Below, in pieces: positions 23,933 through 32,902 of a DNA stretch of 32,902 nucleotides; position 1 is the stretch's first letter, and each line of letters begins with the position of its first letter. The translations under genes and the position numbers were made by a program. This stretch comes from Sedimentisphaerales bacterium. Its GTDB lineage: Bacteria; Planctomycetota; Phycisphaerae; Sedimentisphaerales; Anaerobacaceae. The DNA is taken from positions 1 to 32,902 of the forward strand of contig JAFGTG010000285.1 of the NCBI GenBank assembly GCA_016934255.1, in the 5' to 3' direction. Under the pieces are notes generated by a model. That model had not been told where the DNA came from and ran no database searches. It saw nothing but the letters and a program-made list of their open reading frames with translations.

Positions 23933-26900
23933 TCAGAATTCGAAACGAAGTCCACCTAAGAGCTGATGAGCGTCATAATCGCTTCGAAACTCGCCGCTGT
24001 ATTTGACGTTCACGCTTATACCTTTCTTACTCAATAATGTCATATTACAGCCTACGATCAGCCCGTCCCGAGCTATATCACCACCTTCAGTCTTAAAACT
24101 TACGTTGGACGCACCTTCGAACGCGGCCACGATATGATTATCGTCAATATCGAAATCATGACGCCACGCCACAGTCAGTTCCGGGACGCAAGTGTCCGAT
24201 TTCCTCCCGAACGGCAGATAAAGCCGCAGTCCCAAATCAGACATCAGCGAATCCGTATGCCGATCATCAACCAGAAGATTTATGACCCCGGCACCGGATT
24301 CGCGGTAACTTTCTTCATCCAGATACGTGTACCTCAAAGCTGCAAAGGGCTGAAGAAGGTAAGCGGGAAAATCGAGATTGCGTCCGGTTTCTACGTACGC
24401 GGAGTACACATCGCCGTCATGGTCGCTCTTGGCGAGCCTGGTCAGTCCGCCGATCTGAACTCGCCGGCTGTTGTCGAACGCCTGATAGCCGTACGAAAAC
24501 GCCGTATCCAAATATTGACGCTCATTGAACCAGCTGCCATAGACGGAGCCGAATGAGCTCTTGATGTCACCGTTCCCCATAGTGTCGTCGAGTTTAATAT
24601 TGGTGTTGGACTGGCCGAAACTGACGCCGCCGAGAAAATCGTCCTTGAAAAGCCAATCTAATCCGACTCCGACACCCCCGAGACTGTATTCATAGCCGGC
24701 CAATTCATCATTGTCCTGGTCGCCCCACTGACCGAAACTCTCAATCCACCCGGCGTGTGCGTCTTTCTGTGCGGCACCGGGTACTCTGCCCGTGGCCTCC
24801 AGGTTGGAGCGTACGCTGTGCATACGCTTGACAAGCGTTTGGGCGTATTGAGATATTATATCAAATGTGATGGTGGTTGCCGAGTTATACAGGGCCGGGC
24901 TTAGGCTGGAAAACGCCGTACTCAATTCATTAGATGAGAGCGCCTGAAACGTACCGAGGACGGTGGAAAGATCTCCCGTCGCCTGGGGCATGATTCTATC
25001 CAGATATTCGCCGATACTTCTTTCCACTTTGTTCGACGCCACTGAAGCGTAGTTGTGCGGGCTGGCAGAGATGCGTACACGGTCTGATGCTTGCTCCATC
25101 GAGAATTCCAGAAGCGGCTTGGACTCTGGTAGGATGACCTCTGAGAATGATCCATACAATGCGTCAGCTGTAATGATGTCGTAGGTCATGTGTTCCCGGT
25201 AGAGCCCCTGTTCTCGTTCCACCGCAAGTGTTCCATCCAGATCGCCCCTCCCATTGATCTTCAACTGACCGTAGCCCCCAAGAGGACGGGCAACTGTCGT
25301 AAACAGGCCCGTCTCATGAAACGGATAATCACTGTCAATTTCGAGGATTCCCTCCCTGACGTCTAATTCTGTTACTGGCGTGAGTTCTGAAATTGTATAT
25401 GTTCCGACTCCCTGCTTCGTTGCATGGTCGAATCCCTCGATGCTACTACCAATGGATCCGTCGCCGTCCAATAGAAGTGTATCCGTACCCTCTCCGGCAA
25501 GGATCTGGCCATGAATGACTGAATTGCCGGTGAGTGTGAGCGTATCGTCACCCGGACCGAGAATTACATCACCTGTGATCATTGATCCGCCTGTAAGAAT
25601 AATGGTATCGTTTCCGTCAGCGGCATCAATACTGTATCCCGGACGAGTAGGTGCCAAAGCATCATCACTAAAATAAGCACCCGAATACATGGCAGTCGTA
25701 ATCCGCCCTTCATTAATAATAATATCATCTCCATCGCCTCCGAGGATACCGATGGCGCTAACTCCGTGCGTTGGTGCGCCGTTGATATAATAGGCCAGGG
25801 CACGTACATCGATAGTGCCGGTGTTGCGGATATAACTACCGCCATCACCCCCCATGATACCTGTGGCGGAAGCTGTTGATTTTGTCGAGGCGGTGACACT
25901 CGCATGACCACCGCCAGCATAAACCCGGGCCAGTGCTTTGGCGCTTACGTCGAGAGTCCCCGTATTTTCAATATCATTGTGACCCGCGCCTCCGTGAATG
26001 CCTACGGCTATCGCTTCGCTCGTGGCCCTCGATGTCTCGTATTCATCGGCAAGATTGTTATCACGTGTATCCGCATAGGCATACGAGTGTGCATCTGAAA
26101 AGGAGGTAACTGTGAGTGAACCGTCATTAAAGATGTTATCATTGCCCGCCCCCATCAGGATACCCCGGCCTGTCGCGTTTGCATGTGTTTCTGCCTTTGA
26201 ATAGCAGGTGCTCCAGCTCGAATAGGAATCGCTCCAGGCATAGACATCCCGGGTCTGGGCCTGTACGTCTATGATGCCTAAGTTGAGAACGTAATTCTCT
26301 CCGCCCGCGGCTAATATCCCGGTGGCCTGGGCGACGCCCGTGGCGTATGAATTGGCTTCCGGGTTGTAGTAATAGGAGCGTGCGTAGGTATGAGCGCCGC
26401 CGGCCGTGGTCAGGTCTGCGCGTGCCCGACCGAGTACATTCAGGATGCCGATATTCGTGATCTGCTTCAAACCATCACCGACCCGGATTCCCGCCGCATC
26501 AACGGTTGAGGTGCCGTTACAATTGGCCGTCGAATCCCGTGTGGTGATATTCGTGTTCACCCAGGCGATCTGTTGGGGATTCCCGCTGGCATCTTCACCA
26601 GCCAAGGCACGGACCGTCGTAATGCCTTCATTGGTAATTTGCTGCAGAGCTGTCAGACCGGTATCCGAAAAAGTCGTGAAACCCGTGGCAGTGGCACTCA
26701 GGACGGCTGTTGCATTGGCGAATTCCGAATTGGTGGGTGTATTGGCCCAACTTGTTGTACGTGCCGTCACGTCCAAAACGCCTTGAAGAGAATTAGTTAC
26801 AGTGCCGTCCGCTTCTATGCCTACAGCGACGGCATTAGAATCGCCATAGGCATTGGCCGTTGCCTGATAGTCCCGCGACCAGGCATAACCCTTGGGCGCG

Positions 26901-29900
26901 GCATAACTCGAGGCGTTCACAGTAATTGTTCCATTGTTGGTGACGTTGTTGGAACCCTTGCCCGCCTCTATGCCCTTAGCCTCTCCAAGCACAACAGACC
27001 GCGCTGTAGAATAAGGATACCTTGTCCATGTATAAGTGCGCGCATAGACAGATCCGTTGGCCAGGGAAGAAACTGTGATAGCGCCGTCATTGATCACTAT
27101 GTCATGATCCCCTGCCCCTTCCAGCTCAATGCCATATGCCTTGGCGCTGAGTGGGATCCATTGTCCGGTACTGGGATTGTAATAGCCGGCGTCAATATCT
27201 GCATCCTCATCACTGTCAATATAGCCGGTGTTGCCCAACGGGTCATAGGTTCCTGCCAGGGCGCTAACACTAATGATTCCGGTCTCGTGATTCGTTACGG
27301 TATTGAGCACATTTTTTGAGGTGATGCCATAGGCCGTTGACTCGGCCAATCCATAGCCTTCACCATGCGTTCTCATCAAATCAGATTCAGAAAAGGCATA
27401 GGGTCGTGCGCCGGCATTGGCAACGGCAACAATCGAACCATAATTGCTGAGTACTTTGCTGCCCGCGGATCCGCCGTCTATACCGGCCGCACGGGCTGTG
27501 GATCGGGCCTTGCTCTCGGCATGGGGATCTGAAAAGACATCGACCACAGCGTCTGTAGCGGCATCCGCGACAGTCAAGGCATCCACGGTGATCGTTCCCA
27601 GGTTTGAAATCGTGTCCCATCCGTCGCCGCCGTATATGCCTGTGGCCTGTGCATCACTGCGTGCGTCTGACTGAGCCAAAGAATCTAATAGTCCGAAGGG
27701 AATAAATGTTTCACAGTCAACATCCGCATAGGAGCGAGCTTTCACAGTAATGTCCCCGGAATTTCTAAGAAAATCATCCCCGGAGCCCCCGTCAATTCCA
27801 AAGGAAGAGGTTCGCGCCGAGGATCCGGCAAAGGCAAAGGTCGCCCCTGCGATCTGGCCGCCAAAACCGAACGATCGGCCAATAACCATACATCGAGCCG
27901 TCGTACAAGAATCATTGGCCGTGTCGTCGCCGATAAAGATCGTACCGTTGTTGAAGACGATATCATGACCGCTGCCGCCTTCGATACCGGCGATGGTCGC
28001 ACTGGCACCGAGTGATGACGATACGAAGGAAAGAAAATCGAAAGCCACGGCTGTGGTGTCCGCCTTAACCAGATAGCTATCGCCCGCATGGATCGCACCG
28101 GCAGTAATCGTGCCGGCGTTGGTGATCCAATCGTTGCCCCCTCCTGCATGGATGCCGTCGATATCCGCCGAGGCCAGGGCATGGACGAGGCTCATGGAGA
28201 TTAGGCCGATCGACCCGCCGCCCGCTTCGCCGAGCGAATGGCCTGTGGCGTTGATCGCGCCCCGGTTATTGATGCTGTCGGCATCCACACCGCCCAGAAT
28301 ACCGTGGGAAAAGGCATGTGCCGTGACGCCGGAGTGGACAAATTGGGCGCCGATGCTCGCTTCCGTATTCAAGGCCGTAGTGCTCAGATCAGCGTATGTA
28401 TGGATCTGTCCATTCGTGCTATTGGTGAGAGTATTCATACCAGCCCCCCCGTCCATACCGATGGCCGTGCCCAGTGCATTGACTCCCACACTGCCGGCTT
28501 GAACGCCAAATAATTGAAAGTTGAAGTTGCTTGCCCTTATCTCAGACTGGGCGATGGAGGCCAACGTGCCATCATTGTACAAGGTATCCCCCAAAGCACC
28601 TCCCGCCATGGCCGCAGATCGGGCGTCGGTCTTGGAGCCGACCTTGGCAAACTGGACGCCGCCGCCCTGAATCACATAGTTTTCCGCATAGGCATTCGCG
28701 GTTGACACCACGGTAATAGTACCTCCTGATGCATTGGTCAGCGTATCACCGGCGGTTTCGCCGTCCGTCCCGTCTCCCCCGCTCATGCCGATGGCTGCGG
28801 CTGACGAGGTGGATTCGATATCCCCGCTCGCATAACCCGCCAAATTGGCCGAGGCATTCGTGTCGTCGGAGACGGACACGGCGGTCGTAATAAGCACGCC
28901 GGAGTTCGTCAGTGCATCGACACCCTCTGCGCCCGTAACGCCGATCGATGCCGCGTTGGCATCGGATGACACATCCGCGATAGCCGCACCGGCCTCGGCG
29001 AAGTTGATGGCAATCGTCTCAGTCTGGGTCGTGGCCGACGATGACGTCAACATCACGGACGTATTGGTCACCGTATCGTTGCCATTCCCGGCGTTTACCC
29101 CAACGGCCTGGGCGGCGGAATTGGTCGCGGTCTCGGAAAAGGCCACGCCGGCACTAAATCCCTTGGGCGCCACCGCCGCGGTAATGGCAATACTCTCGGA
29201 TGAAACTTTGGCCGTCGATGAGGTAGTGACCTGTGCATTGTTGGTAACGATATCATTGGCATCGCCGGATTCGATCCCCACGGCGCCTGCGGTGGCTTTG
29301 GTATTTGCCTCTGCAAAGGAAGCTCCCATGGCCACGCCCGTCCAATCAGCACTGACCGCGACAGAGATGCTGTTACTGGAGCTCTCCGCCGTCGCCATCG
29401 CGTCAATAATCCCTGATCCTTCATTTTGGACAGTATCTTCTCCGATACCGGTCCTGATCCCGGTGGCATACGCCTCGGACGCGACATCGGTCTCGGCCAA
29501 TGCAACGGATACGGATATCCCCTTCAGTGATGCGGCGAAGGAAATCCCGACTGCATCGGCGTCTGCGGTGGAGGCGGCCGTTGACGATATCTGACCCTCA
29601 TTTGTAACGACATCGCTCTGCGAAGGCACGCTGGAAGTCTCGTCCCCACCGGCATTCTCACCGTCGATACCAAAACTATACGACGAAGCGCGACTAACGG
29701 CATCCGCCAGTGTGACACCCGCAGCGACACCGACCTTATCGCCGGCCACAGTCACGCTAACACTGGTTGAATCATCCCGGGATGTAGCTTTCGAGGTAAC
29801 AGTACCCATGTTGGTAATGGTATCGCCGCCTGTACCACCGACAATCCCCTTGGCGGCAGTCACAGCCGTCGATGACGCATCCGTCACCGAAACACCGGCG

Positions 29901-31522
29901 GATAATCCTTCCACACTTCCACTTATCGTGGTGGCAATTCCCAGAGAATCTGCATCAGCAGTGGCATAGGCGTTTATATCAGATGTATTGTTAATCATAT
30001 CCGTGCCCGTGCCGCCGTCGATACCACTGGATATAGAGATTGCCGTGGTGGAGGCATTGGCTACGGCGGCCCCCGGCAGCGGGATCAAATTCGTTTTACT
30101 CAGGCTAACGTCAACACTGAGCGTCAGGTTACTTGCTGAGGATTCAGCGCGCGATGTTAAGCCGACGTTGTTGGTGAGCGTATCATTTCCTTCAGCCCCC
30201 ATCATACCGAACGTGTTAGATGACGCCACTGTGCTGGCGTTACCATAAGCGGTGGACGATGCACCTGACGACGTTCCATAGACCGTTGTCGCCGCCGATA
30301 ACTCTGTTAGCGACAGCCCTCCCATCATCAGGGCCCCGGCCGCTTGTCCACTTTCACCGCCACCAAGGGGAGGCCAGATCGAAAATGTATAAATCTGTGA
30401 GTCTGCTTCGGCCTTACCATAGACATCGATCAAGCTCATACCAACCGTACCCGTATTGGTAATCATATCGTTCCCTGCATTACCGGCAATGCCCACGGCC
30501 ACGGCATCCGCAGAGGTCTTAAATGTGCCCACATCGAGACCCAACAGATCAAACAAAGGCTTGATCATGAGACCCTTCATTTTTACCTCAACGGAAGTCA
30601 TGTCCGCTGAGGAGGTAGCCGCAGCATAAAGGGTTTGATAATTGGTGATATAGCTGTCGTTCGCCCCTCCCAGGATTCCCACCGCATACGCATTGGCTAT
30701 CGTGGAATCATCCACGCGGGCCGCCCCAAGAAGCTCGACCATACCCTGTTCCGTCGTTGACGTCGCGTTGGCAATAGCAGACAATGATCCATGATTGGAT
30801 AGTATCTCTGTGCCCCCTGTTATGGCAGATAATGGGCCTGTTTGCATGTCGCCGCTGATTCCGATAGCAGTGGATTGGGCTGACGTTTTCCCATCACCAA
30901 AGACGGACATATCCAAAGGTAATTCAACGGCACTGATCCGAGCCTCTTTAACAAGTGTGTCCGAGACGGCATTCACATTGAGAATACCGTCGTTGGCTAT
31001 ATCATCCACTCCGTTGCCACCCTCAAGACCGATACTTAAAGCTGTTGATGTTGTCGGCCAGCCTGTTACCCCCAGATCGATCTGCATGATAACTCCCGCG
31101 AACTCAGTATAAGCGGCAGAACTCGAAAGGATCGATGCCATGTTCAAGAGTGTATCGGTTCCATCTGAACCACATATGCCCCAACTCGAGGATTCGGATG
31201 CCGTACCTCCCAATCGCATCGGAACATAGGGCGCGTCGATTGTGGAAGAGGTAATCGACGTGATATTTGCTATTCCGGTAACTTGGTCATTGCCGGCAAG
31301 ACTATTGATGCCTGTGGTGCTTGTTGTCACATCTTCATCGGAAGTTGTCTTTAGGATTGCATTGACGTTTACGGGTTGGGTACTGTTGATGATGTCGTCG
31401 CCGGTGGTTCCGGTGATTCCGGTTTTGATATCCTCTATGCCGGAAAATGCAACAGGACTCGCAATCAGCAGAAAGATCGTAAGAGTAAGAAACGCCGTGA
31501 ATAGATTGTTTACATATTTCAT
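23933..31522 (-). CDS. Giant repeat-containing autotransporter (type Va secretion)
   Basis: This 2529-residue protein is predicted to thread its own passenger through the outer membrane. The signal peptide covers about 1-28 (ends VAFSG). The passenger (about 29-2200) consists of about 35 degenerate units of 50-90 residues built around GIxGGxGxDxIxNxGxI followed by alanine-, serine- and threonine-rich strands, as expected for a long beta-helix. The last units tighten into GDVILGPGDDTLTLTG-like 20-residue coils. A helical linker (about 2150-2250, containing SNELSTAFSSLSPALYNSA) leads to a 276-residue barrel starting at HAGWIESFGQWG and ending in the terminal phenylalanine GLRFEF typical of outer-membrane barrels. 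No protease triad or cleavage motif was recognised. A GAAGGGAT ribosome site precedes the ATG. It stands alone on the minus strand, converging on paralogue 3. The adhesive role is inferred. Confidence 0.92.
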   Translation of the reverse strand: MKYVNNLFTAFLTLTIFLLIASPVAFSGIEDIKTGITGTTGDDIINSTQPVNVNAILKTTSDEDVTTSTTGINSLAGNDQVTGIANITSITSSTIDAPYVPMRLGGTASESSSWGICGSDGTDTLLNMASILSSSAAYTEFAGVIMQIDLGVTGWPTTSTALSIGLEGGNGVDDIANDGILNVNAVSDTLVKEARISAVELPLDMSVFGDGKTSAQSTAIGISGDMQTGPLSAITGGTEILSNHGSLSAIANATSTTEQGMVELLGAARVDDSTIANAYAVGILGGANDSYITNYQTLYAAATSSADMTSVEVKMKGLMIKPLFDLLGLDVGTFKTSADAVAVGIAGNAGNDMITNTGTVGMSLIDVYGKAEADSQIYTFSIWPPLGGGESGQAAGALMMGGLSLTELSAATTVYGTSSGASSTAYGNASTVASSNTFGMMGAEGNDTLTNNVGLTSRAESSASNLTLSVDVSLSKTNLIPLPGAAVANASTTAISISSGIDGGTGTDMINNTSDINAYATADADSLGIATTISGSVEGLSAGVSVTDASSTAVTAAKGIVGGTGGDTITNMGTVTSKATSRDDSTSVSVTVAGDKVGVAAGVTLADAVSRASSYSFGIDGENAGGDETSSVPSQSDVVTNEGQISSTAASTADADAVGISFAASLKGISVSVALAETDVASEAYATGIRTGIGEDTVQNEGSGIIDAMATAESSSNSISVAVSADWTGVAMGASFAEANTKATAGAVGIESGDANDIVTNNAQVTTSSTAKVSSESIAITAAVAPKGFSAGVAFSETATNSAAQAVGVNAGNGNDTVTNTSVMLTSSSATTQTETIAINFAEAGAAIADVSSDANAASIGVTGAEGVDALTNSGVLITTAVSVSDDTNASANLAGYASGDIESTSSAAAIGMSGGDGTDGETAGDTLTNASGGTITVVSTANAYAENYVIQGGGVQFAKVGSKTDARSAAMAGGALGDTLYNDGTLASIAQSEIRASNFNFQLFGVQAGSVGVNALGTAIGMDGGAGMNTLTNSTNGQIHTYADLSTTALNTEASIGAQFVHSGVTAHAFSHGILGGVDADSINNRGAINATGHSLGEAGGGSIGLISMSLVHALASADIDGIHAGGGNDWITNAGTITAGAIHAGDSYLVKADTTAVAFDFLSFVSSSLGASATIAGIEGGSGHDIVFNNGTIFIGDDTANDSCTTARCMVIGRSFGFGGQIAGATFAFAGSSARTSSFGIDGGSGDDFLRNSGDITVKARSYADVDCETFIPFGLLDSLAQSDARSDAQATGIYGGDGWDTISNLGTITVDALTVADAATDAVVDVFSDPHAESKARSTARAAGIDGGSAGSKVLSNYGSIVAVANAGARPYAFSESDLMRTHGEGYGLAESTAYGITSKNVLNTVTNHETGIISVSALAGTYDPLGNTGYIDSDEDADIDAGYYNPSTGQWIPLSAKAYGIELEGAGDHDIVINDGAITVSSLANGSVYARTYTWTRYPYSTARSVVLGEAKGIEAGKGSNNVTNNGTITVNASSYAAPKGYAWSRDYQATANAYGDSNAVAVGIEADGTVTNSLQGVLDVTARTTSWANTPTNSEFANATAVLSATATGFTTFSDTGLTALQQITNEGITTVRALAGEDASGNPQQIAWVNTNITTRDSTANCNGTSTVDAAGIRVGDGLKQITNIGILNVLGRARADLTTAGGAHTYARSYYYNPEANSYATGVAQATGILAAGGENYVLNLGIIDVQAQTRDVYAWSDSYSSWSTCYSKAETHANATGRGILMGAGNDNIFNDGSLTVTSFSDAHSYAYADTRDNNLADEYETSRATSEAIAVGIHGGAGHNDIENTGTLDVSAKALARVYAGGGHASVTASTKSTASATGIMGGDGGSYIRNTGTIDVRALAYYINGAPTHGVSAIGILGGDGDDIIINEGRITTAMYSGAYFSDDALAPTRPGYSIDAADGNDTIILTGGSMITGDVILGPGDDTLTLTGNSVIHGQILAGEGTDTLLLDGDGSIGSSIEGFDHATKQGVGTYTISELTPVTELDVREGILEIDSDYPFHETGLFTTVARPLGGYGQLKINGRGDLDGTLAVEREQGLYREHMTYDIITADALYGSFSEVILPESKPLLEFSMEQASDRVRISASPHNYASVASNKVERSIGEYLDRIMPQATGDLSTVLGTFQALSSNELSTAFSSLSPALYNSATTITFDIISQYAQTLVKRMHSVRSNLEATGRVPGAAQKDAHAGWIESFGQWGDQDNDELAGYEYSLGGVGVGLDWLFKDDFLGGVSFGQSNTNIKLDDTMGNGDIKSSFGSVYGSWFNERQYLDTAFSYGYQAFDNSRRVQIGGLTRLAKSDHDGDVYSAYVETGRNLDFPAYLLQPFAALRYTYLDEESYRESGAGVINLLVDDRHTDSLMSDLGLRLYLPFGRKSDTCVPELTVAWRHDFDIDDNHIVAAFEGASNVSFKTEGGDIARDGLIVGCNMTLLSKKGISVNVKYSGEFRSDYDAHQLLGGLRFEF

Positions 31523-32071: not shown

Positions 32072-32680
32072 TTACGCTCCATTTATTACTGGAATTGTCT
32101 TCGAGTAATCTTGAACTTCGTGAGGATCAAATGTAACAGACAATCCTTCGATTGGATTGCCATCACCGTCCAAAAACCAGATAGATCCTTTCCACTGCCC
32201 TTCTCCGTTTGCTATCTTAAACACAATGACATTCAGTCCAACCTTCAGAGTGACTTCCGCCACGGTATCCGGAATGCCACCATGACTTCTGCCCACAGCA
32301 AACTCGTATATCAGTTCGCCATTGAGATATACTCGTGAAGAATAGTTACTATCAACATGCATATCCACTCCGCTCTTCGTGGCACGCATTTTGACATAGC
32401 AAACCGCATAGCTGATACTATGCGTGCAGGTCCATCCCAAGTATTTGTCAAAGTCAATGACTCCATCGTTGAAACGAACTTTTTTCCAAGTTAGTGCATC
32501 GCCGTTTATGGATACCACCTCTCCGTGCAAACGGTGTCCCAAAGTGCGAATGTCCGTACGGCGATGCTCCGCCAGGTTGAAAGATTCATTCCTCCGGACA
32601 GCGCTTAGTCTTCAATGTACTACGCGGAACAAGGTAAGTGACATCAGAGCATGATATCTGTGAAGGCTTATATTCCTCAT
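32072..32680 (-). pseudogene. Decayed C-terminal module of a secreted carbohydrate-binding-like protein
   Basis: The intact frame (32611-32072) has no good start codon before a TTG at 32542. It encodes a beta-rich module with DKYLGWTCTHSISYAVCYVKMRA, SSRVYLNGELIYEF, VTLKVGLNVIVFKIANGEGQW and GSIWFLDGDGNPIEGLSVTFDP. This resembles galactose-binding or NPCBM-like ends of planctomycete hydrolases: a NG loop with evenly spaced strands. Upstream the same frame runs through RRNESFNLAEHRRTDIRTLGH to a TGA (32614-32612). A second frame, with YEEYKPSQISCSDVTYLVP and STLKTKRCPEE, reads naturally up to the MITE edge at 32680. The gene thus looks frameshifted and cut by the element. The N-terminal part, if it survives, would lie beyond the window. 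The function of the whole protein is unknown. Confidence 0.6.
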
Positions 32681-32899
32681 AAGACTTTTGCACAATTGGA
32701 GGTTAGGCATATATTATTTCAGAAAATCTGTTTCAGGATTTTCTGAAAATAATCAACAATCTTGAGATAAGGCATTACCAAGTAAGATGTTAGATAGTGT
32801 GCACTCTACCGCGTTCTTCGGATTTTAGAAAGAAAAAATCAAGAGAACAGATTTTTTCTTTCCAAAAGTATGCCTAACCTCCAATTTTGCAAAAGTCTT
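32681..32899. mobile_element. MITE-like element with 31-bp terminal inverted repeats
   Basis: The left end (32681-32711, beginning AAGACTTTTGCACAATTGG) and right end (32869-32899, ending AATTTTGCAAAAGTCTT) are inverted repeats matching at 30 of 31 positions. The 157 bases between hold two hairpins: TTATTTCAGAAAATC (32714-32728) with its complement at 32737-32752 (one bulge), and a perfect 13-base stem 32828-32840 with 32850-32862. There is no room for a transposase. It looks like a non-autonomous derivative of an insertion sequence. The window ends 3 bases after the right repeat, so target-site duplication cannot be judged. Confidence 0.82.
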
Positions 32900-32902
32900 G
32901 TT

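Follow-up and report, generated by a model that had tools for sequence, protein, structure and literature searches.

The window analyzed here is the whole 32,902-nucleotide stretch of contig JAFGTG010000285.1 from a Sedimentisphaerales bacterium, and its right-hand end is occupied by a 221-bp element built of two terminal inverted repeats (TIRs), two subterminal hairpins (HP1 and HP2), and a variable middle. To the left lies a 2529-codon open reading frame (23933-31522, reverse strand), with repeated units and, judged by eye, an autotransporter-like C-terminus, which is unusual for a planctomycete. The features of the element are as follows:

32680-32900, no strand assigned: whole element, its outer limits taken from the duplicated target sites around sister copies, e.g., TTATTGA-TAAGACTTTTGC ... 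GCAAAAGTCTTG-TTATTGA in copy L002
32681-32711, forward strand: left TIR, 31 nt, AAGACTTTTGCACAATTGGAGGTTAGGCATA; its C, an A in most other copies, is the sole mismatch with the right arm
32687-32715, forward strand: weak resemblance to a promoter along the inner edge of the left TIR, TTTGCA-17-TATATT, which agrees with the consensus at 9 of 12 bases; such matches are no commoner in this region than in shuffles
32713-32753, no strand assigned: subterminal hairpin HP1, ATTATTTCAGAAAATC / GATTTTCTGAAAATAAT, with paired changes conserved across genera
32754-32822, no strand assigned: variable middle, common to the young subfamily; copies from different genera cannot be aligned here
32823-32867, no strand assigned: subterminal hairpin HP2, TTTTAGAAAGAAAAAATC / GATTTTTTCTTTCCAAAA, with paired changes conserved
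32869-32899, reverse strand: right TIR, 31 nt, TATGCCTAACCTCCAATTTTGCAAAAGTCTT, the reverse complement of the left arm bar 1 of 31 positions

An earlier note on this DNA had described a MITE with 31-bp near-perfect ends, two internal hairpins, and no coding capacity. The repeats and hairpins are present as described, with true ends that sister-copy duplications place one base farther out on each side than the 32681-32899 first proposed, and the longest open frame is 34 codons. Arm pairing extends beyond the TIRs (46 nt at 83%), the HP1 stem arms (32717-32728 and 32737-32748) are 100% paired, and those of HP2 (32823-32840 and 32850-32867) are 94% paired. The stems are almost wholly A-T, and the GC content of the element is 33% versus 52% for the window. 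At least one perfect 12-bp inverted repeat arose in 17 of 200 mononucleotide shuffles of the element region; the predicted fold reached −84.3 kcal/mol (z −11.6) on one strand and −88.1 kcal/mol (z −11.7) on the other, and none of 200 shuffles equaled it on either strand. Rfam models gave 0 matches in the window. The contig stops two bases past the element (32902), so its right flank and its own target duplication are unreadable.

The element belongs to a family. In the 6.3-Mb draft genome that carries it, 80 half-sites of the TIR core were found at up to 3 mismatches (0 for a reversed-pattern control), falling at ~57 places by our count, in which half-copies at contig ends may count twice, i.e., about 50-60 copies. 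Fifteen of these are full or near full and 91-97% identical, and further, older subfamilies stand at 73-78%. Contig ends fall inside many other copies too, because repeats break assembly, and the family thereby accounts for break points in these planctomycete assemblies. Within the same bacterial family, 12 of 89 genomes contained the TIR core; in a sample spanning the class, 4 of 397 did, all 4 from that family, and none was found in the viral contigs searched. Related copies occur in five or more further genera of the family, with half-sites in G008 (181), G012, G064/65, and G066/68, and in G017, where 62 half-sites have an altered TIR (TTTTGCAAAAATGAGAAAAGGCATA) and unchanged hairpins. Named matches were metagenome-assembled genomes (MAGs) of Planctomycetota and Sedimentisphaerales, e.g., CSMAG_2034, CSMAG_1215, RS_18_13, and UBA9295, with half-sites most numerous in CSMAG_2034.

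Evidence of transposition came from flanks and from uninterrupted sites. Comparison of insertion sites, as the earlier note had proposed, revealed target duplications of ~6-13 bp, variable in length but with fixed boundaries, in about half of 58 copies, which is above shuffled pairings; in the other half, no duplication was seen. Ten-base-pair repeats at offsets 11/11 occurred in 4 copies, whereas shuffled pairs would yield 0.04, and perfect flanking repeats of 10-13 bp were found at L072, L081, L125, L137, and L016. For three insertions in one species (L127, L139, and L186 in G065), the orthologous site is uninterrupted in the congener G064; flanks are 79-82% identical, so insertion boundaries were read by alignment. 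At L186, CTCTCAAAT[C]ATAAACA-element-[A]ATAAACAAAAAAGG corresponds to CTCTCAAATGATAAACAAAAAAGG in G064, with ATAAACA as the flanking repeat. None of 95 scored copies was intragenic, with an intergenic share of the sequence of ~12%, which also speaks for a MITE. Multiple copies, TIRs, target duplications, and uninterrupted orthologous sites together bear out the identification as a MITE. The spread in duplication length is unusual and, like the copies that show no duplication, counts against this reading.

The earlier note would have given up its proposal for a single-copy element with neither empty sites in relatives nor a related full-length transposon; further copies and empty sites were found, while the full-length transposon was not, in draft assemblies. 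No autonomous insertion sequence (IS) with the element ends ATGAGTTCTGCAAAATTGCAGG / AAGGCTTCTGC was present in the drafts searched, which counts against the MITE reading, and none of the DDE_Tnp_1, IS1595, IS1, and ISL3 transposases in these genomes bears these ends; all are draft MAGs, whose contigs tend to break at multi-copy ISs. Nor did an autonomous partner appear among the TIR half-sites read in the element's own genome and in G017 (every G017 half-site read was a MITE or a remnant), or when 1.4 Mb of loci were scanned with shorter TIR motifs.

The two arms of each stem change together. Where both partners changed on one branch of a 93-copy tree, they went from one Watson-Crick pair to another in 16 of 16 cases in the TIRs, 6 of 9 in HP1, and 5 of 5 in HP2, and controls with partners slid by 1-3 columns gave compensated counts of 0 (TIR), 0 (HP1), and 0-2 (HP2). 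Some paired changes are confined to a single copy, e.g., GGTTGGGC in both arms of L004. Two causes fit this co-variation: (i) selection on structure or (ii) template switching, a documented route of stem maintenance that makes and repairs stems in one event (PMC8794818). We favor template switching plus end recognition as the likelier cause. The earlier note had taken the matching ends as a sign of youth; this does not hold, since the arms co-vary and the TIRs are still matched in copies 24-27% different elsewhere, and matched TIRs therefore do not date an element. Likewise, compensatory pairing in a mobile palindrome does not by itself prove RNA function.

Many copies have decayed. L269 is reduced to bare ends with its duplication retained (TTGACGGAAAT-AAGACTTCTGCAAGATTGCAGAACTCAT-TGACGGAAAT), a collapse for which the term is near-precise excision, and L157 and L159 have collapsed to near-perfect 32-bp core palindromes. 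One-ended copies are common, with truncation at either end, and in L237 and L242 the duplication abuts the break itself. The junctions are as expected of slippage at short arm repeats such as TTGCAG. Solo TIRs were considered as a separate promoter-like motif and rejected as the main reading: many retain part of a hairpin and their break points vary, consistent with truncated copies. With dozens of copies in each genome across several genera, arms that change together, loops that host palindromes, and near-precise excision footprints, the family amounts to a natural palindrome experiment.

Taken as a whole, the family is very probably one of non-autonomous, type II-like DNA transposons (MITEs), moved in trans by a putative transposase and with arms homogenized by template switching; within Planctomycetota it represents a new and well-supported MITE family, of a kind already known. 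The blocks that match across genera are the end modules, TIR plus HP1 and TIR plus HP2 (82-88%), with unrelated middles, and because these modules are kept while the middle is not, HP1 and HP2 look like parts of the transposon ends themselves rather than, as the earlier note had it, structure beyond what transposition needs. Each end would then be a module of ~75 bp, a TIR plus its subterminal hairpin, recognized by a DDE-type transposase that may be encoded elsewhere or lost, with the hairpin perhaps contributing to recognition. A staggered cut in an intergenic target would leave duplications of 6-13 bp. Once in place, the inverted repeats would act as replication palindromes, in which template switching could copy an arm onto its partner and keep the stems perfect, and slippage at short repeats within the arms would yield collapsed or truncated copies and footprints.

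The main alternative, considered unlikely, is that the copies are transcribed within operons and that selection keeps the TIR stem and hairpins for RNase processing or mRNA stabilization, as in Correia and ERIC elements. Many copies occupy tight gaps between genes of the same direction, a median of 33 bp from the next start (copies were read from contig stretches, and genes were called as greedy open reading frames of at least 100 codons), and in such tandem gaps HP1 comes first in 39 copies and second in 20 (binomial estimate, P ~ 0.02, one of several comparisons). This placement, the RNase III processing known for Correia elements (PMC10969869), a fold far better than that of shuffles, and compensated changes in all three helices would agree with a role as RNA. 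However, template switching produces identical compensated changes with no need for selection (PMC8794818), the window is without an Rfam match, and the rare G-U deviations counted along the transcribed strand in tandem copies (23) are hardly more numerous than the A-C ones (16), with HP1 and HP2 leaning in opposite directions, so that no clear RNA-strand signal emerges.

We know of no DDE transposase that needs co-varying hairpins inside its ends, and this counts against the MITE explanation. The co-varying hairpins could instead be essential, structure-read ends, and the mover an undescribed recombinase or a reverse transcriptase that works on a folded strand and leaves duplications of 6-13 bp, which we consider improbable. 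Movement of a selfish element by another route, through an RNA intermediate with target-primed insertion or as a folded single strand, seems highly improbable. It would account for the missing transposase, the variable duplications, the structure kept in both ends, and the many one-ended copies, including L237 and L242 with a duplication at the break; however, either end is truncated, as for palindrome slippage and unlike 5' truncation, the collapse products match short direct repeats within the TIRs, and variable duplications have their precedents among DNA transposons. That the copies act as terminators, as the earlier note suggested, or as bidirectional insulators can be given almost no credence, since, despite a strong predicted fold on both strands, 32680-32900 has no terminator-like site (a GC-rich stem followed by a T run), the stems are nearly all A-T, only 7 of 92 copies versus ~15 expected lie in convergent gaps, the proper place for terminators, L138 lies within one base of each neighboring gene in an apparent operon, and the RNA strand has no clear signature.

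Among described families, the type II MITEs Chunjie (Geobacter uraniireducens) and QMITE1/QMITE2 (Coxiella) are closest in kind, being <500 bp, AT-rich, and intergenic, with TIRs, target duplications, dozens of copies, a stable fold, and many truncated or collapsed copies (PMC10969869). The present family differs from them in sequence and host, in the cross-genus hairpin beside each TIR, in the palindromes nested in hairpin loops, and in a partner IS not found in drafts. Correia repeat enclosed elements and ERIC are intergenic and MITE-like, with RNA-level effects (PMC10969869), and share with our element an imperfect palindrome, insertion beside genes, and a would-be mRNA stem; however, their ends differ. 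REP/REPIN sequences are likewise short palindromic intergenic repeats, but REP hairpins are mobilized by RAYT (Y1) and have no TIR or target duplication. Such an identity was rejected for the present family, which has long TIRs, duplications, and uninterrupted sites and lacks paired REP-type hairpins; the only REP-like palindromes are separate insertions carried by some copies.

Several copies have further peculiarities. In the one-ended copies L093, L103, L145, L181, L247, L293, L302, and L314, the broken end closely precedes a start codon and the TIR points away from it; these are possibly selected deletions or promoter donors. Other palindromes (GTGTCGAGGGCGTCTCGCCCTCGAATCGCGGGCAGGATGCCCGCGACAC, TCCGCCGNCGGCGGA, and AATCCCGATTTATCGGG) lie in hairpin loops of L014 and L015 (C99 and C144 of the element's own genome) and L100, and, in other genomes, of L112, L125, L088, L115, and L180, and seem to land in or replace the loops. 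Copies L237, L255, and L263 of CSMAG_2034 contain, nested within them, another inverted-repeat element, whose ends are GTAACCGTTCACAGGG / CCCTGTGAACGGTTAC. In the same assembly, two copies at contig ends, L144 and L147, are both interrupted by the identical start GGGCATGGTTCAA, probably an insertion sequence that landed in the MITE.
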